Assembly: GCF_000807775.2 (NCBI RefSeq)
Contig: NZ_CP047385.1
Coordinates: 3,782,001 to 3,846,000, forward strand
DNA length: 64,000 bases
Source of the DNA: Pandoraea fibrosis
GTDB taxonomy: Bacteria > Pseudomonadota > Gammaproteobacteria > Burkholderiales > Burkholderiaceae
Direction: 5' to 3'
Part shown: positions 47,990 through 52,773 of the stretch, in pieces
How positions within the stretch are numbered: the first letter of the stretch is position 1
How the letters are laid out: every line of letters starts with the position of its first letter
The notes under the pieces: generated by a model
Databases searched by the model: none
What the model was told of the DNA's origin: nothing
What the model saw: only the letters and a program-made list of their open reading frames with translations
Translations under genes and position numbers: made by a program

Positions 47990-48029
47990 TGCAACAGAAC
48001 GAATTACTGGCTTAATGCATATTTTTTAT

Positions 48030-48042
48030 TTATATAAATCAA
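48030..48042. promoter_or_regulatory. 13-bp motif upstream of aceA, also found upstream of aceB
   Basis: TTATATAAATCAA on the plus strand is the exact reverse complement of the motif at 43612-43624. It is about 180 bp before the aceA start and about 40 bp upstream of the predicted -35 box. Confidence 0.45.
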
Positions 48043-48153
48043 CCAGATAACAAAATAATTTCTTGATGTGAAACGATATTTCCCTTCCTGAAATCATCGT
48101 GTTGTGCCAAGCAGCGCAAATTTTTACGCACCGCAAAGCCATTCCACATCATG

Positions 48154-48184
48154 AAAAAAGCCGGTAACCGCAGTGACCGGCTTT
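48154..48184 (-). terminator. Terminator after the second EamA transporter gene
   Basis: On the minus strand AAAGCCGGT and ACCGGCTTT pair around a ten-base loop and are followed by six T. It separates the transporter gene from the aceA control region. Confidence 0.85.
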
Positions 48185-48236
48185 GATCGAGGAACGTCGC
48201 AAGCGGGGCGATCTTCCCCCTGACGCGCTCAAGACC

Positions 48237-49148
48237 TCATGACGCTGCCCCGCTCGCGGCCGGAATGGCTTTCGGCGGCTTGCACACGAGCCACACGGCA
48301 AGGGCGATGCAACAGCCGCCGAAGAAGTGAGCCATCGTGACGGCTTCGTTCAGGAACAAGGCGCCCCACAGCACGCCGAACGGCGGAATGAGGAAGGTCA
48401 CGGTCAGCGAGCGCAGCGGGCCGAGATCGGCAATCAGGCGGAAGAACAACATATAGGCCACCGCGCTGCAAAGGAAGCCGAGCGCCGCCATCGCCGCCCA
48501 GACACCGCCGGTCGCAGGGCCGGGAACGCCGGACGTCATCGACACATACCCAAAGAACGGCAGCAGCACGATCGCGGCCCCCAGTTGACTGCCGAAGGCG
48601 ACGAGCTTGGCGTCGAGGCCGCCGCGCTCGGTGATCCAGCGTCGCGTGAGGTAACCCGCCAGGCCGTAGCACGACGTGGCAACCAGACACGCCAGCGCGC
48701 CCATGAGCACCGGGCCCGACATCGTGACCGGCCCGGCCTGCGTCAGCACGGCGACACCCGCCAGCCCCAGCAGCACGCCCAGCGCCTTGGCACCTGTCAG
48801 ACGGTCATGGAAGAACAGCGCGCCGATGATGACGCCCATCATCGGTGTGGTGGCATTGAAGATGGCGGAGTAACCGGCGGGCAGCACGCGCGCGGCCAGG
48901 CAGTACATCACGAATGGAATGCCCGAGTTGATCACCCCAAGCACCATCGACGCGCCAAGCAGCCCCTTGAACTCCCAGCGCACGCGCAAGGCGAGCAGGA
49001 TGACCGCCAGGCCGACAGCACCGAGCGTGACGCGCAGGAAAGCGGTCGGAAGCGGTCCGAGCGCGGGAACGATGATGCGCATGAAAAGAAAGCTCGCGCC
49101 CCAGATGGCGGAGAGCGTCAGCAAACGGGCAATGTCAGACGAGCGCAT
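48237..49148 (-). CDS. EamA/DMT-superfamily transporter
   Basis: The 303-residue product has about ten membrane helices in two EamA repeats: LLTLSAIWGASFLFMRIIVP at the start, and a second repeat from about residue 150 (LMGALACLVATSCYGLAGY). Substrate unknown. I chose the ATG at 49148 (MRSSDIARLLTLSAIWG) because it puts the first helix at the usual distance. An in-frame ATG at 49208 would add 20 residues. It is divergent from the QueF-like gene and distinct in sequence from the EamA protein at 20255. Confidence 0.85.
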   Translation of the reverse strand: MRSSDIARLLTLSAIWGASFLFMRIIVPALGPLPTAFLRVTLGAVGLAVILLALRVRWEFKGLLGASMVLGVINSGIPFVMYCLAARVLPAGYSAIFNATTPMMGVIIGALFFHDRLTGAKALGVLLGLAGVAVLTQAGPVTMSGPVLMGALACLVATSCYGLAGYLTRRWITERGGLDAKLVAFGSQLGAAIVLLPFFGYVSMTSGVPGPATGGVWAAMAALGFLCSAVAYMLFFRLIADLGPLRSLTVTFLIPPFGVLWGALFLNEAVTMAHFFGGCCIALAVWLVCKPPKAIPAASGAAS

Positions 49149-49389
49149 GGTCGGAGAAACGGCACGGGTGACCGTCGATAGCGTAGGAATGCGTGAATCG
49201 TCCCACAATGGCCGCAGGCACGCTGGTCATAATCGGACATGGCGGCATACGCACGCGCCGGGCGCTCGTCAAACCGCATCACCCGGTATACCGGATGACC
49301 TCCTTACACGTTTTCAGAATCCACGCATTGAGCAGGCGAGACGTCACGGGATATGGTGATCGATCGACTCATCAGAGATTTCACATCCC

Positions 49390-50307
49390 ATGACGCCACA
49401 CGATTCCCGTGCCAGTTCGATCGCCGATGCATTCACCGATGCGCCCGCCGATTCCCCGACCTCGCCTCCGGATGCGCATCCCCTCTCCTGCACGTCGCCG
49501 GCTAGTCTGGACAACGGCCTCCATCCGATGCCTCGCACGCGCTTCGCGCATCGAACACCCCCGCCAACGGGCACACCCATTGTCACGCCGCGCGGCTATG
49601 ACTTATGGAATCACTACGAAGTCGCGTGGCTCGACATGCACGAGCGGCCCCAGATCGCCGTCGTGGAACTCGTGATTCCCTGCGACTCGCCTTATACGTT
49701 GGAGATGTCGGACGCGCATCGCTATTTCCTCACGTTGCGCGACCGGTGCTTCGAGTCGACCGATGCCCTTGAGGCGCATGTGGCAGGCGAGCTTTCGCGC
49801 GGTCTGCACGCCTACGTTCTCGTGCGCACGACACCCGTCAGGCAAGCCGTGCGCGCAACCGCCGCGCGCGATCCGGGGGCGGAGAGTCTCGATCTCGAGC
49901 CGGTCAGCGTGGTGCGCGGCGGCGTGCAGGCGAACCTGCTGCGTCATGCCAGCGATGCCAATGCCGATACTGCTCTCGTGTCGCCCATCCGCGAATGCCT
50001 GACCTCCGATCTGTTGAGTGTGCGATGTCCGCTGACGAATGGCGTCGACTACGGCACTGTCTGGTTCGACTACACAGGCGCACCGATCTGCCGTCAGGCA
50101 CTGCTGGCCTACGTGCTGTCGTATCGCGACAGCGCGATGTTCATCGAGCAATGTGTGGAGACGCTCTTCGCCGACGTGCTCGCGCAGTGTGCCCCGTCCC
50201 GGCTGGCCGTAGGCGCGCGATTCACACGACGTCACGGCATCGATATCAACCCCGTGCGCTCGACGCATGCCATTGCCATCACCAACATTCGCACCGTCCG
50301 CCAATGA
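49390..50307 (+). CDS. queF: QueF-like tunnelling-fold protein with altered signature residues
   Basis: The 305-residue protein aligns end to end with the long (E. coli-type) QueF, the NADPH-dependent reductase of preQ0 to preQ1 in queuosine synthesis. Shared blocks include GYDLWNHYEVAWLD, the thioimide Cys C213 and acid D220 in VRCPLTNGVDYG, E253 in IEQCVE, RRHGIDINPVRS and the C-terminal TVRQ. Two key features differ. The NADPH-binding QueF motif (ESKSxK in relatives) reads E105-MSDAH, and the His before the substrate-binding Glu is I252. Reductase activity is therefore uncertain. About 60 disordered residues precede the core. The stop overlaps the next start (ATGA), a queuosine-precursor transporter. 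Confidence 0.85.
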   Translation: MTPHDSRASSIADAFTDAPADSPTSPPDAHPLSCTSPASLDNGLHPMPRTRFAHRTPPPTGTPIVTPRGYDLWNHYEVAWLDMHERPQIAVVELVIPCDSPYTLEMSDAHRYFLTLRDRCFESTDALEAHVAGELSRGLHAYVLVRTTPVRQAVRATAARDPGAESLDLEPVSVVRGGVQANLLRHASDANADTALVSPIRECLTSDLLSVRCPLTNGVDYGTVWFDYTGAPICRQALLAYVLSYRDSAMFIEQCVETLFADVLAQCAPSRLAVGARFTRRHGIDINPVRSTHAIAITNIRTVRQ

Positions 50308-51134
50308 TCGATACCGCTGCTTCCCCGCTATCCCCTGCCGCCAGCCCGTCACGTCAGGCCACACGCATCACGCCGTCGGTGATCGTGCTTGCCATCGCGT
50401 TCGTGAGCTTCTTGCTGATCTCGAACGCGCTCGGCGCGCGCGTGTGCGAAGTCACGCTGCCGTGGATGGAGACAGAGGAGCCCTTCCGGTTGACGTTTTC
50501 CGCCGCGCTGATCAGTTTTCCCTTCGCGTATCTGTTCTCTTCGGTACTGACGGAGGTCTATGGCTATCGCCTCAGCCGCATTGTGATCTGGAGCGGCCTT
50601 GCGACCAATCTGGTGATGATCGGGTTTCTCTGGCTAATGTCGTGGCTGCCAACCGAAGCGGCCTGGGCGGCGCAAACGGGCTTTACCGATGAGGTACAAC
50701 GTCACTGGTTCGAGGCGATTGCCCACATGTTCGTCGCGTCGGTCAGCGCGTGCCTCGTGGGTGAGTTCGCGAATGCGGCCACGCTTGCCCGCATGAAAGT
50801 GGCAATGCATGGCAGGCTGGCCAGCCTTCGCCTCATGGCGGGCAGCGCGCTTGCCGCCATGCTCGACTCGGTCGTGTTTGTGGGGGTGGCGTTCGCCTAT
50901 GTGCTCGACATCGACGCGATGGCCCGCATGGCCGGACTCGAGTTCGTATTCAAGTGTGCACTGCAATGGCTCGTGCTGCCGCTCACGATCGGTCTCGCAC
51001 GTCTACTCAAGCGGACCGACGGCATCGATCATTACGACATCGGGACGTCACTGAATCCCTTCGGCTTTCACTGGTCGATATGCCGGCGGCTTACGCTGGG
51101 TCGAATCGCCCGTTTCAGCCGACTGGGCCGATAA
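50304..51134 (+). CDS. yhhQ: Queuosine precursor transporter (YhhQ/QPTR family)
   Basis: The 276-residue membrane protein belongs to the QPTR family, which imports preQ0/preQ1 or queuine. It shows SNALGARVCEV, SFPFAYLFSSVLTEVYGY and GEFANAATLARMK, with about six helices. The ATG at 50304 overlaps the QueF-like stop by four bases, so the two proteins are made together. The length exceeds E. coli YhhQ because of an N-terminal Ser/Pro-rich stretch and a basic C-terminal tail. Confidence 0.9.
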   Translation: MIDTAASPLSPAASPSRQATRITPSVIVLAIAFVSFLLISNALGARVCEVTLPWMETEEPFRLTFSAALISFPFAYLFSSVLTEVYGYRLSRIVIWSGLATNLVMIGFLWLMSWLPTEAAWAAQTGFTDEVQRHWFEAIAHMFVASVSACLVGEFANAATLARMKVAMHGRLASLRLMAGSALAAMLDSVVFVGVAFAYVLDIDAMARMAGLEFVFKCALQWLVLPLTIGLARLLKRTDGIDHYDIGTSLNPFGFHWSICRRLTLGRIARFSRLGR

Positions 51135-51171
51135 CCAACGCGATTGCCCACGCGATTTGCCGCACCCCGGC

Positions 51172-51639
51172 TCACGCCTCGCTGGTGTCGCGCTCGCGGC
51201 GATAAGCGACCCAGTCGCCAGCAGGGATCTGCGGCAACTGGGCGACGGCCGACTCGCTCACCGGATACACGATGCACGTGTAAGTCGCGCCATTGCAGGC
51301 GACGTCGTGCATCTCTCGCACGAACAACCCCGCCTCCCCCGGATAAACCGCTTCGATCTCGTCGAGCACGGGAATCAGTGCGGCCGGGATCCGGTAGATG
51401 TCCCCCGTCACGCCGCTGCCTGCCGCGTCGAGCACCATGCCCGGATAGTGTCCGAAATCATAGAGTCGTCCGCCGAGCGACGCCGAGCCCACATAAGCCG
51501 GCGGCGCAATGCCGTGACGCGCGGCGGCATGCATCAGGTCGTTGATCTCGCCGGCACGCAGCGTGCCGTAGACAAAAACGTGGATCGCCTCGTCGGGCGT
51601 GTCATGGGCGTCTTGCAAATCGCGCGTAGCCGTTGTCAT
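51172..51639 (-). CDS. Gamma-glutamylcyclotransferase-like protein (AIG2/GGCT family)
   Basis: The 155-residue product has the family start HVFVYGTLRAGEINDLMHAA with the YGTLR substrate loop, LYDFGHYPGMVLD, and the catalytic Glu region VLDEIEAVYPGEAGLFVRE. Members release 5-oxoproline from gamma-glutamyl peptides or act on related amides; the substrate here is unknown. I chose the ATG at 51639; an ATG three codons earlier (51648) and one at 51738 are possible. It is convergent with yhhQ and divergent from the AraC gene. Confidence 0.87.
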   Translation of the reverse strand: MTTATRDLQDAHDTPDEAIHVFVYGTLRAGEINDLMHAAARHGIAPPAYVGSASLGGRLYDFGHYPGMVLDAAGSGVTGDIYRIPAALIPVLDEIEAVYPGEAGLFVREMHDVACNGATYTCIVYPVSESAVAQLPQIPAGDWVAYRRERDTSEA

Positions 51640-51900
51640 CACAAACATTCCGATCGGAAATCGCGGACATTGGGGCCATGCCAACGCCGGAGAATTGGGG
51701 GAAATGCCGCTCGCCTGCAACGCTCTGCACGGCGACATGCCTTCACGTACTGCCAGCGATCATAGCGCCTTTGCCGGACGGAAAGCTGTGACGCGCCCCA
51801 ACACACGCGCCCTCTTCCTTCGCCTGCGGCCCACCGACGCGGCTGCCGAGGCGACGCGGCTGATTTACACTCATGCATCTCAAATTGTCGCAACTACGCC

Positions 51901-52773
51901 ATGCCCAACCTCCCGCCCGTGCTGCCCGATTCATTGGGGACGGTGCCACAGGCCGAACCCGACCCTTATGTCCTGCCGGCGGGGTACATGCCGACTCGGG
52001 AGCGTCCGGTGCGGCTGCGCGCCCGGCCGTTGGGCGACGGCACCCGCGTGCCGGACCATCAGCATGCCTGGGCACAGGTCGCGTACACCCCTCGAGGCGT
52101 GATTCAGATTGCGGTTGCCGATGCGGCATGGATCGTTCCGCCGTCACGTGCGATCTGGATTCCGCCGAATGTCGTGCACAGCCTGCAAGTCAACGAACCC
52201 TCGTACCTTCGCACCCTCTACGTCCATCCCGAGGTCATTCCGGCCGGGCTGGATCATTGTCGGGTCGTGGAGGTGTCGCCGTTGCTGCGCGAGTTGATCG
52301 CGGCCATCGACGTGCCCAAGGAAGCGCTGGACACGCCTCGCGAACAACTCCTCGGTGGCCTGATCCTCGACGAATTGCGCCGAGCGTCGCCACTGCCGCT
52401 GGAGGTACCGCTACCGCACGACAAACGGCTGCTGACCCTCTGCAATGCGATGCTCGCCGACCCGGCACGCGCCTGGACACTCGATCAATGGGCTCGCTAT
52501 GCAGGCGCCAGCCCGCGCACCATCGGACGGCTGTTCCGGCAAGAGCTCAACATGAGCTTCGTGCAGTGGCGTCAACAGGTCGTGCTGGTGCAGGCGATTC
52601 CGCTCGCGTCGAAGGGCTATCCGCTGGCCCGCATTGCCCGGGAATTGGGCTATCGAAGCCAGAGTGCGTTTTCCGCGATGTTCAAACGCACCTTCGGCCG
52701 CACGCCCAGCGAGTTCTTCGCCACCGCGCCCGGCACTACATCTGCCGGAACAGGTGAGCGTACTGACGGCTGA
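51901..52773 (+). CDS. AraC-family transcriptional regulator with cupin sensor domain
   Basis: The 290-residue product has an N-terminal cupin-like domain (HQHAWAQVAYTPRGVIQIAV, WIPPNVVHSLQV). The C-terminal AraC domain has two helix-turn-helix units, from WTLDQWARYAGASPRTIGRL and from YPLARIARELGYRSQSAF, and ends FKRTFGRTPSEFF. It resembles the YidI/NimR group of single-ligand AraC regulators. Its 3' end overlaps the convergent response-regulator gene by 38 bp. The target genes are not evident. Confidence 0.92.
   Translation: MPNLPPVLPDSLGTVPQAEPDPYVLPAGYMPTRERPVRLRARPLGDGTRVPDHQHAWAQVAYTPRGVIQIAVADAAWIVPPSRAIWIPPNVVHSLQVNEPSYLRTLYVHPEVIPAGLDHCRVVEVSPLLRELIAAIDVPKEALDTPREQLLGGLILDELRRASPLPLEVPLPHDKRLLTLCNAMLADPARAWTLDQWARYAGASPRTIGRLFRQELNMSFVQWRQQVVLVQAIPLASKGYPLARIARELGYRSQSAFSAMFKRTFGRTPSEFFATAPGTTSAGTGERTDG

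Follow-up and report, generated by a model that had tools for sequence, protein, structure and literature searches.

What might a QueF homologue that has lost the NADPH-binding signature of its family do next to a gene for a queuosine-precursor transporter? The question arises from two overlapping genes of Pandoraea fibrosis in a window of 64,000 nucleotides (contig NZ_CP047385.1; G000:C1:3782001-3846000), and feature coordinates below are positions in this window unless marked as genome positions. We use the name QueF2 for the variant QueF homologue encoded at 49390-50307. A first-pass annotation, made from the letters of the window, had described a QueF homologue overlapping a YhhQ/QPTR gene, and the open reading frames, their domains and the ATGA overlap are as it stated:

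49390..50307, plus strand: QueF2, 305 residues, a QueF homologue of two domains that lacks the NADPH signature (open reading frame, Pfam, alignment)
50304..51134, plus strand: queuosine-precursor transporter of the QPTR/YhhQ family (COG1738, PF02592), 276 residues (Pfam, NCBIfam)
50304..50307, plus strand: ATGA overlap between the QueF2 stop and the transporter start (sequence)

We tentatively favour, with confidence a little short of even, the reading that QueF2 is a former salvage reductase turned non-reductive 7-deazaguanine-binding protein that would serve the adjoining transporter. This appears the simplest reading because the residues that handle preQ0 (7-cyano-7-deazaguanine) and form the thioimide are kept, the hydride-donor signature is gone, a transporter gene lies next door and a canonical reductase is encoded elsewhere in the genome.

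The two Pfam domains of the family, QueF_N and QueF, both score above their cut-offs in QueF2 (a tandem T-fold of more than 200 residues), and the alignment with Vibrio cholerae QueF spans residues 66-298 (E = 3.9e-34). The equivalog model for the bimodular enzyme (TIGR03138, NCBIfam) gives QueF2 191.8 bits, below its cut-off of 293.45. Because the first ~40 residues have low model confidence and the stretch ahead of the first domain differs in length between species, the exact start of QueF2 is uncertain. The downstream gene, the sole Vut_1 match in the genome, belongs by score to the preQ0 transporter family, at 101.2 bits for Vut_1/PF02592 (cut-off 27.2) and 51.7 bits for TIGR00697 (NCBIfam), the latter only just over its cut-off of 50.95.

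According to the available text of PMC5372742, the QueF motif E(S/L)K(S/A)hK(L/Y)(Y/F/W) contains the NADPH-binding residues; the defining residues (B. subtilis/V. cholerae numbering) are Cys55/194, Asp62/201, Glu97/234 and, in the motif, Glu78/94; Cys236 occurs in 100% of bimodular sequences; and sequences missing any defining feature were excluded as non-QueF. We aligned 15 Pandoraea QueF2 proteins with 67 canonical rows (55 loci, 11 database proteins and V. cholerae QueF), of which 65 are distinct (L026/L061 and L033/L087 being duplicates) and eight are second copies linked to QPTR; the rows exclude P0021, which we did not count as canonical, as well as P0025, P0033 and P0034. By this alignment, the residues of interest in the window protein are as follows:

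49702..49725, plus strand: codons 105-112, reading EMSDAHRY where QueF has its motif, with Glu105 kept
50026..50028, plus strand: Cys213, counterpart of V. cholerae QueF Cys194, which forms the thioimide; kept in 15/15
50047..50049, plus strand: Asp220, equivalent to Asp201, kept in 15/15
50143..50145, plus strand: Ile252 in place of His233 (Ile in 12/15, His in 3/15)
50146..50148, plus strand: Glu253, counterpart of the preQ0-anchoring Glu234, kept in 15/15
50233..50235, plus strand: His282 at Gly263 of RRGG (Gly in 67/67 canonical rows; His in 10/15 and Tyr in 5/15 QueF2)

The motif is present in 66 of the 67 canonical rows, the remaining one reading ESKT, versus none of the 15 QueF2 proteins, in which the region follows the pattern E-M-(S/A/T)-(D/N)-A-(Q/H/R)-(R/H)-Y. 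The replacement of the ESKSxK signature by EMSDAH (residues 105-110), as claimed in the first-pass annotation, is therefore borne out, and the loss of the signature holds throughout the Pandoraea set, as does the retention of Cys213, Asp220 and Glu253; its further claim, loss of the active-site His, is right for the window protein and fails as a general statement. A missing His cannot define QueF2 function, since it is absent in only 12 of 15; it is the loss of the signature, not of the His before Glu253, that marks the QueF2 clade. The equivalents of Glu94, Cys194, Asp201, Glu234, Cys236, Arg258, Arg261 and Arg262 are retained in all 15, so every QueF2 protein has the catalytic Cys and Asp, the anchoring Glu and the motif Glu94 that PMC5372742 lists for bimodular QueF. 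Judged by the motif, the defining feature tested, QueF2 should not be filed as a QueF reductase. Public records name some QueF2 members NADPH-dependent reductase and others hypothetical protein, which is a hazard for annotation.

The changes in QueF2 are concentrated around the motif and the catalytic Cys. The canonical rows have 70 columns with conservation of at least 93%, and QueF2 departs from the canonical residue at 18 of them; the motif and Cys loop hold 15 of the 70 columns and 10 of the changes, the other regions 55 columns and 8 changes (Fisher p = 1.7e-4). The changes outside these two stretches include His229 to Ser (15/15), His233 to Ile (12/15) and Gly263 to His or Tyr (15/15), and S95, L100, Q199, P200 and W202 (V. 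cholerae numbering) are changed as well. QueF2 thus has in common with bimodular QueF of the E. coli / V. cholerae type the two-domain T-fold, the catalytic Cys/Asp pair, both preQ0-anchoring Glu residues, the second (backdoor) Cys and the RR-x-G tail stretch; it differs in its motif, in the histidines and Gly263 just named, in a rewritten Cys loop and in its score below the equivalog cut-off. The stretch before the Cys reads LLKSNC in the genome's canonical QueF versus LLSVRC in QueF2, an alteration that would suit a carrier or sensor of some other ligand imported by QPTR (preQ1, that is, 7-aminomethyl-7-deazaguanine; queuine; or another deazapurine). QPTR subfamilies have indeed been suggested, in the available text of PMC5372724, to prefer preQ0, preQ1 or queuine. 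We nevertheless think such a ligand very unlikely, as the nucleophilic Cys and the Asp acid, kept in 15/15, would have no obvious role with ligands that carry no nitrile.

Whether a canonical queF and the remaining pathway genes lie elsewhere in the genome was a question left by the first-pass annotation, and for queF, queC, queD, a queE-like gene and tgt the answer is yes, with queA found in addition:

genome 884459-885181: canonical QueF (ESKSFK, FHEQC)
genome 229368-230039: QueC
genome 230113-230472: QueE-like match, 57.6 bits
genome 230752-231183 and 406643-406972: two PTPS/QueD-family genes, only the former adjoining queC
genome 992652-993731: TGT
genome 993952-994983: QueA

The QueE match lies under the cut-off of its model, a cut-off reached by 0 of 14 control genomes, though 12 match. 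A TGT-family search of the genome returned a single match, tgt itself, and thus no DpdA-like protein; other dpd genes were not searched. Because canonical QueF is present along with queC, queD, the queE-like gene, tgt and queA, the cell should, on its gene content, make both preQ0 and preQ1 without QueF2. We considered and rejected the possibility that the genome has no QueF besides QueF2 and that the clade tolerates its substitutions, since canonical QueF occurs in 32/32 Pandoraea genomes. The related question of whether the substitutions are clade-wide is answered in the negative: the canonical QueFs of the clade keep the signature, and the QueF2 substitutions are therefore not simply those of a clade-typical QueF.

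Under the favoured reading, one could envision imported preQ0 or a close relative being bound in the old QueF2 pocket, possibly held as a reversible thioimide on Cys213, with no reduction of the bound base. The base would then be retained, or else handed over or released to the canonical QueF and to TGT, and the role of QueF2 would be to capture the imported base rather than to convert it. The ligand, the adduct and the hand-over are conjectural parts of a proposal built on sequence, gene order, selection and predicted fold.

The arrangement is not peculiar to the window. QueF2 occurs in 15 of 32 Pandoraea genomes, and the proximity to a queuosine-precursor transporter gene noted in the first-pass annotation is conserved, a same-strand QPTR match lying just downstream in 15/15. 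Wider flanks were compared in 14 of the QueF2 genomes, G006 being the exception, and show a syntenic locus: QueF2 comes after the EamA-transporter gene and is followed, as far as the contig extends, by QPTR and a GGACT-family gene; in G024 the contig ends inside QPTR. A full-length QPTR domain without QueF2 is found only in G014, where QueF2 is cleanly gone from the same locus; the transporter therefore does not need QueF2. In that genome (locus L070) the frame preceding QPTR starts out similar to the one that precedes QueF2 in G022. G014, with QPTR alone, and G008 (L009/L059), with QueF2 beside half a QPTR, are opposite single losses. G003 and G013 have QueF2 fragments at the locus and no Vut_1 match; the Vut_1 matches of G012, G018 and G030 are partial and at other sites, with no locus neighbour genes found beside them. 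This distribution points to vertical inheritance with repeated loss, mostly, though not strictly, as a QueF2-QPTR unit.

Where QueF2 is retained, its frames are free of stops (15/15) and it evolves under constraint. The median ratio of nonsynonymous to synonymous substitution rates (dN/dS, by the Nei-Gojobori method) is 0.117 over 103 usable of 105 pairs, and 0.109 over the 19 pairs with dS below 0.8, with a maximum of 0.154. The values are 0.089 for QPTR (13 sequences, excluding G008, which is truncated, G024, which is split by the contig end, and G011; 0.086 in a recomputation), 0.113 for the EamA neighbour (one genome entered twice, as L004 and L060) and 0.073 for canonical QueF (median of 66 pairs, 12 sequences). 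QueF2 is thus under clear purifying selection, somewhat weaker than that on canonical QueF, and we rejected a pseudogene on these grounds. Because the signature-less state is common to 15 genomes in which QueF2 is under purifying selection, it is not a matter of chance. Accordingly, it seems hardly credible that QueF2 is a remnant, decaying or with a purely structural role, of a salvage reductase since lost: the remnants in G003 and G013, the clean loss beside an intact QPTR in G014 and the long stem branch of the QueF2 clade (1.58) would fit decay, yet the frames are intact and dN/dS is 0.09-0.15 for the eight closest QueF2 pairs, well below 1.

The operon has counterparts in other genera, and there its QueF keeps the reductase signature. 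A profile search of 398 genomes (32 of them Pandoraea; E up to 1e-60; at most six first-look candidates scored in most genomes) returned the 15 Pandoraea QueF2 proteins at 466-509 bits and then 16 second-type QueF proteins at 261-324 bits; in a wider search of 399 genomes (E up to 1e-50; six first-look candidates scored in most; the genomes listed with a match including two Pandoraea), the best match outside QueF2 reached 197 bits versus 518. We take the family and order searched to be Burkholderiaceae and Burkholderiales; both searches were judged by score, and motifs were read in fetched loci only. Fifteen of the 16 second-type loci, all non-Pandoraea, were fetched, and each (15/15) has a second queF directly upstream of a same-strand QPTR, as in Pandoraea, with ESK(S/T)xK and FHEQC intact, unlike QueF2. 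The queF-QPTR operon therefore recurs, and elsewhere its QueF bears the reductase signature. The genera, by their presumed names, are Trinickia, Paraburkholderia and Burkholderia. In L125/L126 the Cys pattern, and in L107/L110/L111 the His pattern, fell on spurious stretches, and these residues were taken from the alignment; the QPTR frame of G043 looked interrupted. Seven of the non-Pandoraea operon QPTR proteins (L044, L046-L051) have an N-terminal extension of ~70 residues that is absent from Pandoraea QPTR.

In a tree of 84 rows (eleven Pandoraea canonical rows left out; midpoint root for drawing only), Pandoraea QueF2 and the database protein P0019 share the long stem (100/100) and are joined first by P0021 (89/84) and next by one of the eight QPTR-linked copies included (L045/G043) with four proteins from metagenomes (83/84, below the level that the program stars); the seven remaining copies linked to QPTR fall on the far side of that branch. 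Since the operon-linked QueFs do not form one clade, it is not established that the operon's QueF arose only once, and because of the long branches the deeper placement of QueF2 is unsure in this tree. We rejected a recent duplication of the Pandoraea canonical QueF, several well-supported branches separating the two. P0019 has lost the full signature and does not have the Asp that replaces the motif Ser in QueF2; P0021 has lost it in part (EATS, with Gln at the His position) and is, by its residues, an intermediate state. These two are the only other signature-losing proteins among 133 database proteins examined; that search matched 6882 proteins at E 1e-20, the best 120 of which were listed, so more signature-less ones may exist. 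P0039, P0092 and P0110 of the same set are one residue off the motif pattern.

One might suppose instead that QueF2 is still a nitrile reductase with an altered cofactor such as NADH, and that the lysines of the signature went when contact with the 2'-phosphate was lost. Loss of Lys together with Ser to Asp is the type of change seen when NADPH specificity relaxes, and QueF2 has lost the motif Lys, has Ser to Asp in 14/15 and keeps the Cys, the Asp, both Glu residues and Arg262; moreover, the operon-linked copies of other genera bear the canonical signature. We consider a cofactor switch quite unlikely, however, because the changes go beyond the lysines (S95, L100, Q199, P200, W202, H229 and G263) and because P0019, the nearest relative, lacks the Asp.

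The archaeal QueF-L archaeosine synthase of Pyrobaculum calidifontis offers a parallel, being a QueF relative that does without NADPH and uses Cys/Asp thioimide chemistry. It differs in having small single-domain subunits that form a decamer and act on preQ0-tRNA; both QueF domains are present in QueF2, whose match to the two-domain enzyme covers 250 residues versus 102 for QueF-L. We know of no tRNA role for QueF2. Similarity alone is reported to separate QueF and QueF-L homologues poorly (available text of PMC6884629), and a tRNA substrate for QueF2 is conceivable because a cyanobacterial QueF binds RNA (available text of PMC12475003). By analogy, ammonia or water rather than hydride might attack the Cys213 thioimide, yielding an amidine or amide as QueF-L does on preQ0-tRNA. 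We regard this as unlikely: ammonia reaches the QueF-L decamer through a central tunnel (available text of PMC5485725), whereas QueF2 is two-domain and QueF of the V. cholerae type is described without such a tunnel in the available text of PMC5372742, and neither ammonium nor glutamine nor asparagine reacted with the thioimide that QueF-L forms with free preQ0, again as far as the text of PMC5485725 is available. The literature searched yielded no report of an amidine or amide product in Pandoraea. Nor did it yield, in titles and abstract openings among the best matches, a QueF without the motif beside QPTR, or any paper treating both Pandoraea and queuosine; most subscription journals lay outside its scope.

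Several observations weigh against the favoured reading of a non-reductive binding protein that serves QPTR. Within QueF2, the replaced sites are no more conserved than ordinary columns (0.815 vs 0.826), and columns with a single residue make up 4 of 18 replaced sites versus 71 of 158 ordinary ones. Arg262, which we take to help bind NADPH, is kept in 15/15, and this counts against a complete loss of the cofactor site. The distances between the QueF2 and QPTR matches, from -4 to 63 bases across species, mean that tight translational coupling is not general; QPTR persists without QueF2 in G014, and G008 keeps QueF2 beside a QPTR reduced to about half (residues 8-148 of 276 match). Separately, the idea that the replaced residues make up a newly constrained active site was not borne out by QueF2 column conservation.

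An Rfam scan of 48000-52000 for an upstream preQ1 riboswitch gave nothing near the gathering score (two weak, unrelated matches), and a consensus scan of 49100-51350 gave no sigma-70-like promoter and no terminator-like site. Between the divergent EamA and QueF2 genes lies a block, GCTGGTCATAATCGGACATGGCG (49222-49244), in which 13 of the 14 aligned Pandoraea loci show no more than about one change, the 14th ending early in the stretch taken; it is a possible promoter or operator. Among the database proteins, P0066, P0098 and P0112 (the last named as Legionella rowbothamii) are fusions of a MerR-family DNA-binding domain and the two QueF domains, with ESKSxK intact, and are possibly preQ0-sensing regulators or regulated reductases. 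Locus L071 of one Pandoraea genome (G030:C1:4055000-4073000) has a second QueC, two DndB-domain proteins, a DUF6884 protein, a helicase and a DpdA-like TGT-family protein that falls short of its cut-off (23.6 bits versus 26.3), with an IS66 element and a partial Vut_1 match nearby; it presumably resembles a Dpd 7-deazaguanine DNA-modification island.

Compared with the first-pass annotation, whose functional interpretation is supported in part, the finding now reaches further: QueF2 is present in 15 of 32 genomes of the genus, is under selection and has signature-bearing relatives in the same kind of operon. To our knowledge, no enzyme family other than QueF reduces nitriles to amines, and the only departure from that reaction so far described is archaeal QueF-L. 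It is possible, at a confidence we would put well short of even, that a two-domain bacterial QueF has here become a non-reductive salvage protein, either a covalent thioimide carrier of preQ0 or a new amidine- or amide-forming enzyme. If so, NADPH-dependent nitrile reduction would have been abandoned a second time, independently of QueF-L. Sister genera retain the reductase-transporter operon, and its intact signature there provides a comparison set at hand. QueF2 is a natural test of what the active site can do when mainly its cofactor side has been dropped, and it is relevant to the fate of imported preQ0 in a cell expected to synthesize preQ0 itself.
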